A stretch of 20,009 nt of DNA from a virus: positions 1-20,009 of the IMG/VR virus record IMGVR_UViG_3300047493_000052, one strand, 5' to 3'. Under the pieces are notes generated by a model. It did not search any database. It was not told the DNA's origin and saw only the letters and a program-made list of their open reading frames with translations. Each line of letters starts with the position of its first letter. The first letter of the stretch is position 1. Both the position numbers and the translations under genes were made by a program. Of this stretch, positions 8,922-18,666 are shown piece by piece.

Positions 8922-9614
8922 TTAATAATATTTCTTCGCCTCGCGGTGTATCAGGCTGGTTTTAATCTCACGGCCGCCGAATGTCAAATGCTGCGTCGGG
9001 GGCAGGCAGCGGTAGCAGGCGATGTGAGATTCGATGACGCCGTGTACCGCTACCGGCAGGAACTGGTTGCCGCCGCAGGACGCGCAGCGTGCGAACAGCG
9101 ACCAGCTGGCGGAGACGGAAAGCCGTTTGATGATCGGGCAGCGCTCGGGCGCGTCGAAGCGCAGGAACTTCGGAGCTTCCGCGCGCGGCGCTTCGGATTC
9201 GCCGGCGAACATATCGAACTGGTTTTTTGATTTTTTAACCCAGCTGTTCCTGACCGGCTCCGGAAAAACAAGCCGCCGCGCCTCGATATCCGGAATCGCG
9301 CGCGCGATGCGTTCGAGGACTTTGCCGTAAAACGGATTCGCGGGCCCGCGCGTCACCAGTACCGACTCGCGACCTATGGCTGCGCCCAGCGCCGCCATCG
9401 TTATAGGCATCTGCGCCTGGTACCAGTAATCCCTTGCCACTATATCAAGCCAGCGCTGTGTCTCCCGCTCACTTAGCGGTGGCGCTACACAAACATCGGA
9501 CTGCGGCTTTTGGCACGCCTCGCGCCCAGTGCGCAGCGAGAAACCTTCGCGCGCATGCACTAGCATGCCGCCGCGCGGGTTGTGAGTGATGTTATTTTCG
9601 GAATGGCGGTACAT
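8922..9614 (-). CDS. Second zinc-binding protein of packaging block
   Basis: A 230-aa protein. I use the ATG at 9614, which begins MYRHSENNITHNPRGGM. The frame opens further to a TTG inside the inverted repeat, but an ATG three bases outside the stem is more likely. There is no clear Shine-Dalgarno sequence, so initiation may depend on the folded RNA upstream. Residues 50-130 are helical (ERETQRWLDIVARDYWYQAQ, then IGRESVLVTRGPANPFYGKV). The C-terminal third carries CASCGG and CYRC, a probable four-cysteine zinc site. Function is not recognised; its place between terminase and portal suggests a packaging-linked or DNA-binding role. Confidence 0.7.
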   Translation of the reverse strand: MYRHSENNITHNPRGGMLVHAREGFSLRTGREACQKPQSDVCVAPPLSERETQRWLDIVARDYWYQAQMPITMAALGAAIGRESVLVTRGPANPFYGKVLERIARAIPDIEARRLVFPEPVRNSWVKKSKNQFDMFAGESEAPRAEAPKFLRFDAPERCPIIKRLSVSASWSLFARCASCGGNQFLPVAVHGVIESHIACYRCLPPTQHLTFGGREIKTSLIHREAKKYY

Positions 9615-9617
9615 AAA

Positions 9618-9735
9618 TAATTTTAGCGGATACGGCAAGACTAAGTGGAAATCGAACCCCTGACATCCGTTCTACCTGGCTGAACTATAGCACGAGTAAG
9701 TCAATCAAACTAACCCGTCGTATCCGCTAAAATTA
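9618..9735 (-). ncRNA. tRNA-like element closed by 17-bp inverted repeat
   Basis: A perfect 17-bp inverted repeat (TAATTTTAGCGGATACG at each end, opposite orientation) encloses 84 nt. Read on the minus strand the interior contains TAGTTCAGCCAGGTAGAACG, an exact tRNA D-arm layout (T8, A9, GTTC/GAAC stem, A14, G18-G19, A21). It is followed after only six bases by AGGGGTTCGATT, a tRNA T-arm 5' half with TTCGA loop. The anticodon arm is missing and the 3' half of the T stem no longer pairs fully. The element sits between the stop of one gene and the start of the next. It may be a decayed tRNA, an attachment-site remnant or a structured regulatory RNA. Confidence 0.6.
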
Positions 9736-9981
9736 CTTCCTATTAAGCAAATCTAAAATTATTTTCTGGTCTGCATTCGTGCATCCAATCCCGTCGCTCT
9801 CAAACCCTTCGGCCCAAATTATTTTTTACGGTTCCATAGACTTGCGACCGAATGGACCACGGGCTAGACAAAGCCCTGTACCTCCCTCCTTAACAAGTGT
9901 CCAGTAAGGTTCTTTTTTTTGCTGCGCAGCTCTATCGCATTCAAAAATAGTCCATTCACCAAAAACATAATCTTCGGCCAT
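9733..9981 (-). pseudogene. Small gene interrupted by in-frame TAA
   Basis: The ATG at 9981 lies 3 nt after the terminase stop, with GGAGAGG upstream. The first part (51 aa) begins MAEDYVFGEWTIFECDRAAQ and ends FGRKSMEP, then TAA (9828-9826). In the same frame 30 more codons follow (KIIWAEGFESDGIG, then NADQKIILDLLNRK) up to a second TAA at 9735-9733. The downstream part has normal protein composition, so the whole was probably an 82-aa gene broken by one substitution, for example CAA to TAA. Alternatives are a genuine 51-aa product or stop readthrough. A run of eight A (9911-9918 in mRNA sense) lies in the first part. Function is unknown. Confidence 0.6.
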
Positions 9982-9984
9982 AAA

Positions 9985-11898
9985 TCACTGCCTCTCCGTG
10001 AGTTTCATATCTTTCATGTACCGCGCCACCAGCCCATCCACCCGCTTCCGCGGCTCATTTTTTTCCGCATCCATCACGGCCGCGCGGGTGAGTTTTTCTC
10101 CCTTCATTCGCAAGCGAACGGTCTCGTCCCAGGCCCAGTAGGTTAGCGCCGCGGCGAACACGCGGTCGTTGCATTTGCTGGGCGGGCTGCCGATATAACC
10201 GTCGTCGTCGATATACATACTCTTGCATTCATTGAGACACATCAGGGAGCGTATATGTGCCCGCCGCAGCTCGATGCCGTCGTGCAGCTTGTGCAGCATC
10301 TGAATGCGTGTCTCCGGCGTCGTCTTCCACTGCTTCAGCACGCTGCCGGTCATCGAGTCCACCCGGCGGTAGAAAAAATCCTTTATATACTTCAGGCAAT
10401 TTCGCATGTCCTGGTCGTCTTTCACACCAAGTCCCACGAGCTTCTGCCTTAGTTGCGTCAGCTCCTGATATACTGGTCCCCCGGGGCCGGTGATTTCAAG
10501 GTTGAGGGTGATGTCGCCATATAGGCCGCAGATGAACGCCAGCGCCCAGGCGAATTGATGCGTCGATATCGACGGGCTCGCATACTCCGCCACCTGCACC
10601 ATGCAATCAGAGAACGCGCGCGCAACGTGGATAACGCCGTTGTCTCCGTTCGGGCTGCTGCCGAAAATCGGGTCGGCGCCGATGACGTATCTCGCTCCAG
10701 CGACGGGCTTCTCCCAGATTTTAAGATCCGCGCGGCTGATGTCGCACTGGAACAGCCTCGTATCGCGAAAGTCGTCGGTGAGCTTGATGATGAACGGGCT
10801 GCACAAGGATTTATGGGCCTCCTTCATGCAGGCCGTCAGCGTCGTATTGGTGAAGAAGCTCGATCCCGTGGACTGGAAGGCGTCCTCTTCCGTCCAGGGC
10901 ATCTCCTGGTCCATGGTGGACTGGTCGTTGCTGCATTCCGTCTCCAGGTGGCAGCGGTACCAGGCAATCTGTCCCGCGGTGATATCGAAGCCGTATTCGA
11001 GTTTCACCTTGTCGATGCGCTCGCGTTCGAGCTGCGTGAGCGCGCTTTGCGTTCCTTCCGGCATGTATTTCAGGTAAAGCGGATGCTTTTCGCTGAATTC
11101 GTTGCGCTCGTCGCGCCACCAGCCGATGAAGATGGCTCGCTGCGCCGGCGAGCTTTTTGCGATTTCCCACATATCGGCGAAATGGTTGAAGCCGTTTGCG
11201 GTGCTCTCATAGGCGTAGAGGCGGTGCCGGTAAATCTTGGTGAGCGTCTGCCCCAGCGCCTTGATATCGTCGGCCGACCCCCAGAAAGCGACTTCCGTGG
11301 CATGCAGGAAATTACAGCCTCCCGAGCGTCCCATTTTATTCGTCGTCGTGCGCGTGCCGGCGACGAGATAGCGGAACACGGAAGAATTTTTGAACACCAG
11401 CATCAAGCGGTTGTTGGTGTTATGCTCGACGCGGTAGTTGGGGGGTAGCGTTTTCAGGAACATATCAATCTGATTGCGGAACTGGTCGCGCGAGCCTTCG
11501 TCATGCGTCGCGAAGATGCCCAGCAGGCCCTTATGCTCAAACGCCCAGAATATGTCGAGTGCCAAAAAAAAAGTCGATATCCCCGCTTGCCGGTTCTTAA
11601 GAATGATGAACGTCGTGACGCCTTCGGCCATTCCCGCTATGATTTCCTCGAGAAGGTAGAGCTGGGAGCCCAGCAGGTGCAAGGGAATCAGCCCGTAATC
11701 GCGCGACTGTATTTTCAGCGCTTTGATGAAATCCAGGAAGCGTTCCTTTGGGAACGGCTCCACGCTCCCGTCGGGAAGTTTCAGCTCGCTGTTCTCCTGC
11801 AGCAGGTGGGCGCGGAAAGAACGTGTGTCATGCGGATTCTCCGCGCTGTCCGGCACGGCTTCCGGCTCAATTTCGTCATCGTCAGGTTCGTCAACCAC
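9985..11898 (-). CDS. terL: Terminase large subunit
   Basis: A 637-aa DNA-packaging ATPase-nuclease. The N-terminal ATPase shows the terminase-type Walker A KNRQAGIST (101-109), a Walker B-like region HATEVAFW (199-206) and the coupling motif ESTANG (231-236). The C-terminal RNase H-like nuclease shows VIGADPIFG (Asp409), LNLEITGPGG (Glu468) and SKCNDRVFAAALTYW (Asp578), the expected acidic triad. It drives DNA into the head through the portal coded downstream. The start is GTG at 11898 and has no Shine-Dalgarno sequence; the frame is open without ATG back to a TAG at 11961. It overlaps the Cys-rich gene by 8 nt, so coupling or frameshift entry is possible. No small terminase was recognised. 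Confidence 0.92.
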   Translation of the reverse strand: MVDEPDDDEIEPEAVPDSAENPHDTRSFRAHLLQENSELKLPDGSVEPFPKERFLDFIKALKIQSRDYGLIPLHLLGSQLYLLEEIIAGMAEGVTTFIILKNRQAGISTFFLALDIFWAFEHKGLLGIFATHDEGSRDQFRNQIDMFLKTLPPNYRVEHNTNNRLMLVFKNSSVFRYLVAGTRTTTNKMGRSGGCNFLHATEVAFWGSADDIKALGQTLTKIYRHRLYAYESTANGFNHFADMWEIAKSSPAQRAIFIGWWRDERNEFSEKHPLYLKYMPEGTQSALTQLERERIDKVKLEYGFDITAGQIAWYRCHLETECSNDQSTMDQEMPWTEEDAFQSTGSSFFTNTTLTACMKEAHKSLCSPFIIKLTDDFRDTRLFQCDISRADLKIWEKPVAGARYVIGADPIFGSSPNGDNGVIHVARAFSDCMVQVAEYASPSISTHQFAWALAFICGLYGDITLNLEITGPGGPVYQELTQLRQKLVGLGVKDDQDMRNCLKYIKDFFYRRVDSMTGSVLKQWKTTPETRIQMLHKLHDGIELRRAHIRSLMCLNECKSMYIDDDGYIGSPPSKCNDRVFAAALTYWAWDETVRLRMKGEKLTRAAVMDAEKNEPRKRVDGLVARYMKDMKLTERQ

Positions 11899-17889: not shown

Positions 17890-18666
17890 ATGTTACAGAC
17901 TTACCATAACGACGAAGCCCTCAAAGCCAAAACCATCGCCGCCATGCGTGAAGACGTAGCTGCCGAACGCTTGGTGCCCGGTCATTACTGGAACGGCCGC
18001 AACGGCTGTTTCGTGGGCTGCGTCATCCGCGGCAACGACCATAGTAAGTTTGAGGACGTGCTCGGCATTCCCCGTCTTATCGCGCGCCTGGGCAACGGTA
18101 TTTTCGAAGGGCTACAGGACCGCGCAGCGCAGCAGGCCTTCGCGTTTGACTTCCTCGATGCCATCCCAGTCGGTGTATACCTTTCTTCCTGCTGGCCTAA
18201 ATTCGCCGTTTTTATGCTGGCTGATAAAGAACACGGGGTCCTGCAATATGCGAAGAAGGATTCCACGAAGAAGGCCATCCAGGATGTCGTTGATCTTTAT
18301 CAGCGCGTAATAAACGGCGAAAAAATTGACAACGCAGAATGGCAGAATGCCTACTCCGCCGCCGCCGACGCCGCCGCCTACTCCGCCGACGCCGACGCCG
18401 CCGCCTACGCCGCCGCCGCCTACTCCGCCGCCGCCGACGCCGCCGCCTACTCCGCCGCCGCCGACGCCGCCGCCTACGCCGCCGCCGACGCCGCCGCCTA
18501 CTCCGCCGACGCCGCCTACTCCGCCGCCGCCGACGCCGCCGCCTACGCCGCCGCCGCCTACTCCGCCGCCGACGCCGCCGACGCCTCCTCGCGCGCACGC
18601 AAAAGCCGCTTCGCGGCTTTTGCTACTTACCTTCTTAAACTCTTCCGCGAAGCGACCGTGAATTAG
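17890..18666 (+). CDS. Phage protein with Ala/Tyr-rich repeat tail
   Basis: A 258-aa protein; AAAGG precedes the ATG at 17890. Residues 1-155 form a globular domain with conserved-looking stretches: YHNDEALKAKTIAAMREDVA, then GHYWNGRNGCFVGCVIRGND, GIPRLIARLGNGIFEGL and LDAIPVGVYLSSCWPKFAVF. I know this arrangement from phage proteins that likewise carry an Ala-rich, Tyr-punctuated tail. Residues 154-232 here are only Ala, Tyr, Ser and Asp in repeating order and would form a continuous helix. A basic end (RARKSRFAAF, then YLLKLFREATVN) follows. Its role is unknown. Cys in GCFVGC could bind metal. The tail probably changes length easily. Confidence 0.75.
   Translation: MLQTYHNDEALKAKTIAAMREDVAAERLVPGHYWNGRNGCFVGCVIRGNDHSKFEDVLGIPRLIARLGNGIFEGLQDRAAQQAFAFDFLDAIPVGVYLSSCWPKFAVFMLADKEHGVLQYAKKDSTKKAIQDVVDLYQRVINGEKIDNAEWQNAYSAAADAAAYSADADAAAYAAAAYSAAADAAAYSAAADAAAYAAADAAAYSADAAYSAAADAAAYAAAAYSAADAADASSRARKSRFAAFATYLLKLFREATVN
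18349..18585 (+). repeat. GCC/TAC/GAC/TCC codon repeat coding AYSAAADA tail
   Basis: About 79 codons consist only of GCC (Ala), TAC (Tyr), TCC (Ser) and GAC (Asp), for example AYSAAADAAAYSADADAAAY. The unit is about 7-12 codons and varies. Every third base is C, so the tract is also a near-perfect trinucleotide repeat prone to slippage. Confidence 0.9.
18599..18623 (+). other. Perfect 11-bp hairpin inside gene end
   Basis: GCAAAAGCCGC (18599-18609) and GCGGCTTTTGC (18613-18623) pair perfectly around a 3-nt loop TTC, within the last 23 codons of the repeat-tail gene. It resembles a terminator stem with T residues in its descending arm, but no T run follows. It may reduce readthrough into the next gene or stabilise the mRNA. 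Confidence 0.55.

Follow-up and report, generated by a model that had tools for sequence, protein, structure and literature searches.

The window analysed here is the whole stretch of 20,009 nucleotides of viral DNA taken as positions 1 to 20,009 of the IMG/VR virus record IMGVR_UViG_3300047493_000052. Its packaging operon lies on the minus strand, so that the relevant RNA reads as the reverse complement of the window. Along this strand the gene of the terminase large subunit (TerL) is followed by a 51-codon ORF, a structured element spanning about 118 bp and a downstream gene (Table 1). The tRNA layout inside the element was found on the minus strand as well, in agreement with the operon orientation assigned to it in the initial annotation.

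Table 1. Features of the element and of the surrounding operon, in window coordinates
Feature	Position	Strand	Remarks
TerL gene, upstream in operon	9985..11898	(-)	
51-codon ORF, Shine-Dalgarno-like GGAGAGG upstream	9826..9981	(-)	relatives searched for, none found
AT-rich lineage-specific insert relative to L082	9615..9984	(-)	limits approximate
AAATAATTT motif, one of three	9756..9764	(-)	others at 9615-9623 and 9816-9824
5' arm of exact 17-bp inverted repeat	9719..9735	(-)	RNA sense is the minus strand; pairing probability >0.99
Linker, 24 nt, from 5' arm to tRNA-like	9695..9718	(-)	weak hairpin possible
tRNA-derived stretch from acceptor to G-CCG, anticodon arm absent	9633..9694	(-)	alignment, arm-deleted scores, covariance models
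D arm, GTTC-AGCCAGGTA-GAAC	9669..9685	(-)	4/4 pairs
T arm, AGGGG-TTCGATTT-CCACT	9644..9661	(-)	4/5 pairs, 8-nt loop
3' arm of exact 17-bp inverted repeat	9618..9634	(-)	shares final two bases of tRNA-like
Downstream gene; L082 homologue directly after TerL	8922..9614	(-)	start codon assignment tentative

The element lies in an insert with a GC content of ~41-47% against ~57-60% in its surroundings, and the motif AAATAATTT occurs only three times in the window (0.14 expected), each time inside or beside this insert. In the nearest relative, L082 (65% in TerL and 77% in the capsid protein), the insert is absent and TerL is followed at once by the counterpart of the downstream gene; the insert is also absent from L083, and no tRNA-like was detected in the relatives of the window phage that were searched. 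A conserved signal of the packaging operon is ruled out by these relatives, which lack the stem and the tRNA-like, the very observation that the initial annotation had named as counting against it. The sole other copy, on contig IMGVR_UViG_3300049217_000088, is identical across 11,249 bp, so that the junctions are real yet carry no evolutionary signal. No Shine-Dalgarno sequence precedes the ATG at 9614, which lies 3 nt past the 3' arm, as had been remarked, but the gene opening there carries ~46 additional N-terminal codons (9474-9614, minus strand) compared with its L082 homologue, which makes the true start doubtful. Elsewhere in the window, an ORF at 17890-18666 on the plus strand has a long Ala/Tyr/Asp/Ser-rich repeat tail (AYSAAADAAAYS...) and no PHROGs match.

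An inverted-repeat search of the window recovered the exact 17-bp arms separated by an 84-nt loop just as first described, and the arms can be extended to 9615-9634/9719-9738 with 19 of 20 bp paired. The only other perfect inverted repeat of at least 12 bp with a gap of up to 200 nt in the window was a 12-bp repeat sharing one of these arms. A survey of other viral contigs totalling 1.44 Mb yielded a single repeat, common to three contigs, whose arms reach 17 bp or more with a gap of 30-200 nt. A perfect 20-bp inverted repeat with a 100-nt gap was observed at L028:1351-1490 (also in L036 and L045), alike in architecture and unrelated in sequence. Folding of the minus-strand RNA, a check suggested at the outset, predicted formation of the stem with a probability above 0.99, and the loop alone was no more stable than shuffled sequences. 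The claim that a simple tRNA pseudogene does not explain such a stem was not compelling, as template switching can generate perfect stems in a single step (PMC8794818). The possibility that the 24-nt linker is an anticodon arm moved out of place (4/5 pairs, 7-nt loop, U33) was also considered and rejected, with a chance occurrence estimated at ~14%, a pyrimidine at position 37 and an order of parts that is no circular permutation.

The sequence in the loop was aligned to several tRNAs, E. coli asnT among them, and the alignment placed a 16-nt gap (positions 28-43) exactly at the anticodon arm, whose absence had been noted. The complete D arm was likewise borne out with all four pairs formed at 9685-9669, while the T arm, of which half had been recognised, proved nearly complete with four of five pairs and an 8-nt loop. 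The acceptor strands at 9694-9688 and 9643-9637 (minus strand) form 5/7 pairs, two of them G-U, and are followed by G-CCG; as most of the acceptor persists, the 17-bp stem encloses it and does not replace it as had been supposed. In total, 13 of the 16 cloverleaf pairs are retained. The window copy lacks two features of a canonical tRNA gene, the anticodon arm and a fully paired 7-bp acceptor stem, and is no intact tRNA gene; ARAGORN gave no match, nor did Rfam even at E 10. Scored against tRNAs with the anticodon arm deleted, the copy reached 46 (tRNA-Pro, L196) and 44 (E. coli asnT), whereas 1,878 control windows from the same phage averaged 17.4 and never exceeded 27. A generic covariance model built from 18 tRNAs with the anticodon arm removed matched it with 29.9 bits (E 1.6e-6), the runner-up in the window scoring 9.7 bits; the tRNA and covariance checks proposed initially were answered by silence from ARAGORN and Rfam and a match to the arm-deleted model. 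The loop sequence is tRNA-derived and has lost its anticodon arm, and its pairing is partly decayed.

Such a remnant could be a former attachment site, where part of a host tRNA gene stayed behind in the phage after integration or imprecise excision. Integration-derived tRNA fragments are common (PMC9897764), and the Lactococcus phages bIL309 (L306:2494-2554) and 98202 (L307:2505-2565) carry an unannotated 61-nt tRNA-like without a normal anticodon arm, past the lysin gene and near the record end, perhaps close to the attachment site. The window copy, however, covers the span between D arm and CC but lacks the middle of it, and its T stem is mismatched; an unbroken segment of a functional host tRNA gene would not be expected to look like this. 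It also stands among packaging genes, and the window proteins tested included no recognisable integrase. The attachment site put forward in the initial annotation is hence largely refuted and very improbable. The MITE-like insertion suggested alongside it, a mobile element with terminal inverted repeats of 17-20 bp and the tRNA remnant as cargo, fares no better. The insert is lineage-specific and its ~118 bp are bounded by perfect terminal repeats starting with TA, but these termini are trivial for any repeat that starts with TA, the window holds no second copy, and the search for mobile copies that had been called for found the exact repeat pattern only in the window virus within IMG/VR, not once in 84,980 prokaryotic genomes, and no copies of the element in INPHARED or PLSDB. 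We regard this explanation also as largely refuted, with a very small probability.

IMG/VR was searched with patterns combining a D arm and a T arm so close together that no anticodon arm would fit between them. In its GTTC/GAAC form the pattern occurred in the window virus and five others, including L310 and L313, which scored 55.6 and 68.1 bits against the arm-less model and which also show a switch of one D-stem pair from C-G to U-A. The GCTC/GAGC form was the commoner of the two, with 82 contigs; of the loci examined, 12 matches were ordinary tRNA-His and 68 lay outside any ARAGORN tRNA. Demanding at least 6/7 acceptor and at least 4/5 T-stem pairs defined a class of 46 contigs with 37 distinct sequences, counts that reflect these strict D-arm patterns only. 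Acceptor pairing was not part of the search pattern, and about 1.3% of random sequence is estimated to reach 6/7 acceptor pairs. Members measure ~58 nt and keep the acceptor, D and T arms intact, with a linker of ~8 nt (about 7-10 nt) in place of the anticodon arm.

The alignment of 36 class sequences revealed two-sided changes at all seven acceptor pairs, with both partners altered in 157 cells where shuffles gave 43, a signal that collapsed on sliding the partners by one base. The sequences had been selected for pairing and the 98.6% of paired cells is biased accordingly, which does not explain the variety of pair types. In L256 and L288, whose flanks are near-identical, the acceptors are wholly different yet paired. 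The phage class has strongly covarying acceptor stems. Several of its elements are scored by Rfam as plain tRNA, which keeps them inconspicuous, and no description of the class was found in the open-access PMC literature, the extent of our search.

In cellular genomes, 38 of the 40 matches to the GTTC-type pattern were rejected as ordinary tRNA-Pro of the Verrucomicrobia type, in which the anticodon arm mimics a T loop, and the remaining two were Flavobacterium tRNA-like runs. These two genomes (L181:1477-1539 and L195:2558-2618) share a conserved run of tRNA pieces, among them an arm-less tRNA-like whose T stem is perfectly paired; the run may be a composite RNA or what is left of a tRNA array. 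The class model applied to 148 Bacteroidota genomes also matched ordinary tRNAs and is hence uninformative there; the strict arm-less pattern was absent from 99 genomes. BLAST of single class members against INPHARED returned mainly the Polaribacter phage Danklef. Some further tRNA-likes were observed, namely a related one with a longer unusual middle in Hafnia phage yong2 (L314:2870-3040), placed between cI and the next gene and preceded by an inverted repeat, and tandem pairs of arm-less matches at L212:4857-4977 and L224:11354-11460; at L245:1866-1903 an Rfam abiF RNA match (39.9 bits) lies directly upstream of an arm-less tRNA-like. The M3 RNA of phi80 was discarded as a candidate member, being an annotated oop homologue that the class model does not match.

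No class element fell within a confident ORF. Under a simple coding filter 27 of 30 loci had a co-directional gene as their closest upstream neighbour and 29 of 32 as their closest downstream neighbour, a tendency that is weak by itself as phage genes are often co-directional. The next start codon followed 18-35 nt after the element in L216, L236, L268, L214, L271, L227, L277 and L253, start positions being approximate in metagenomic contigs. Neighbouring genes encode the major head protein (L216, L227, L245, L273), a head assembly or scaffold protein (L245, L273), TerS (L250, L229), TerL (L218, L250, L284), PhoH (L236) and DNA polymerase (L214). An isolated phage is represented by Danklef_1 (MT732458.1, 43546-43603), whose 58-nt element is a perfect class member annotated as an 'Undet_(NNN)' tRNA, with co-directional flanking genes and a CDS 13 nt downstream; the isolation paper counts one tRNA (PMC8776804). 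Strong hairpins (z < -2) lay just upstream of 12 of the 37 class elements, for example in L216, L227 and Danklef, compared with 8 of 134 controls (Mann-Whitney p 3.6e-4).

These hairpins bear on an explanation by which the stem alone matters, the 17-20 bp intercistronic hairpin acting as an RNase III site, a protector of the 3' end or a control on translation of the ATG 3 nt downstream, with the tRNA remnant as passive cargo of the loop. It would account for the near-certain predicted stem and for the ATG at 9614 just past the 3' arm without a Shine-Dalgarno sequence, and it draws on the frequency of hairpins before class elements, but the stem is not conserved, its loop is long and the later start of the L082 homologue casts doubt on the start codon that would be controlled. 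We consider it unlikely.

Whether the window copy belongs to the class was judged from its score and its parts. The class model matched it with 21.3 bits (E 6e-7), less than the 29.9 bits of the generic arm-deleted model, and an independent loss of the arm is for this reason possible. The D and T arms are kept and the 7-nt linker GGATGTC falls within the class range, whereas the stems are less completely paired (acceptor 5/7, T stem 4/5) than in the class. The discriminator-equivalent base at 9636 lies 21 nt before the ATG at 9614, itself a tentative start, and the flanking genes are co-directional. No class member has an enclosing stem, the longest repeat in their flanks being 9 bp. The window copy may be a degraded or divergent example of the class, by descent or by separate loss of the same arm, and may work like a class member.

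The main rival to mRNA punctuation is a decayed tRNA scar without function. A tRNA gene would have arrived with the AT-rich insert, its anticodon arm would have dropped out as replication jumped over that hairpin, and the rest would have decayed; the inverted repeat would be a young, one-step template-switch copy of ~20 nt in reverse complement. The partly decayed pairing, the absence of the insert from L082 and a conservation limited to one identical contig agree with such a history, as do the origin of perfect stems by template switching (PMC8794818) and the commonness of partial tRNA genes in prokaryotes (PMC9897764). Against it, the same exact arm has been lost in a structurally maintained phage class at similar positions, and 13/16 cloverleaf pairs remain here. 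We hold the scar to be a serious possibility, short of an even chance.

Our preferred reading, to which we give a probability of roughly 0.4, is that the window element is an intercistronic tRNA mimic serving as RNase P-cut punctuation and a degraded or divergent member of the phage class, its transcription and cleavage being inferred. Among the ideas of the initial annotation, a tRNA-mimic leader or a signal for processing the packaging mRNA is the best-supported reading because the anticodon-less class occupies the same kind of position in other phages, although the element is absent from the nearest relatives. Bacterial RNase P reads the acceptor and the T arm of its substrates. It cleaves mRNAs and phage-induced RNAs, and human RNase P tolerates loss of the anticodon arm (PMC4919922). 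As such mimics could be read by RNase P and could not decode, their most likely job would be the punctuation of mRNA. Acceptors that vary freely while staying paired argue for a structural signal rather than for charging by one synthetase, and the intergenic placement just before a start codon fits a punctuation of the mitochondrial style. In the proposed mechanism the operon mRNA would carry the mimic after TerL and ahead of the following gene, with the acceptor/T-arm helix retained for RNase P recognition and decoding made impossible. Host RNase P would cut the transcript at the mimic, tRNA 3'-end nucleases helping on the 3' side, and the upstream mRNA would be separated from the downstream one. 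The 17-bp stem of the window copy would enclose the mimic and hold both ends together; it may also be an RNase III target or shield the 3' end of the TerL mRNA. With its poor acceptor (5/7, two G-U), T-stem mismatch and 8-nt T loop, the window copy may be a bad RNase P substrate.

More tentatively, and as a possibility rather than a likelihood, three-armed tRNA mimics without an anticodon may be in wide use among phages to punctuate polycistronic mRNAs in cis, most of all near head and packaging genes, recruiting host RNase P and sometimes adding a protective hairpin; the window copy would be a variant within its own 17-bp stem. A class of this kind would be the phage counterpart of mitochondrial tRNA punctuation, with tRNA bodies that can be processed and do not decode; it would account for some of the tRNAs that phage annotations list as 'undetermined', give RNase P a further class of targets and be amenable to testing in the isolated phage Danklef. 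The window copy, even as a mere scar, led to the class.

Several known systems resemble the element in part. The late genes of T7 have RNase III sites in long intercistronic stems; the long intercistronic stem is shared, whereas those sites have no tRNA-like body and cleavage here is putative. Correia-type MITEs of ~100-150 bp have terminal inverted repeats, are intergenic and are co-transcribed with their neighbours. They are similar in size, terminal repeats and intergenic site to the window element, which in contrast is single-copy and has no family that we could find. To our knowledge, the mRNA sites of bacterial RNase P are not whole tRNA bodies with a D and a T arm. The enzyme proposed here and the intercistronic position are otherwise the same as at the RNase P sites of bacterial polycistronic mRNAs and phage RNAs (PMC4919922). 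The 'Undetermined (NNN)' tRNA of Danklef is like the window copy in its acceptor, D and T arms, its ~8-nt linker and its co-directional genes, but is perfectly paired, has no enclosing stem and was annotated as an ordinary tRNA without comment. In mitochondrial tRNA punctuation and in the t-elements of plant mitochondria, tRNA or tRNA-like structures mark the cut sites of polycistronic transcripts (PMC8003010). These are likewise intergenic tRNA-likes at which the transcript is cut, a step that is putative here; unlike them, the elements described above lie in phage operons, their anticodon arm is cleanly missing, an extra 17-bp stem encloses the window copy and cleavage is predicted.
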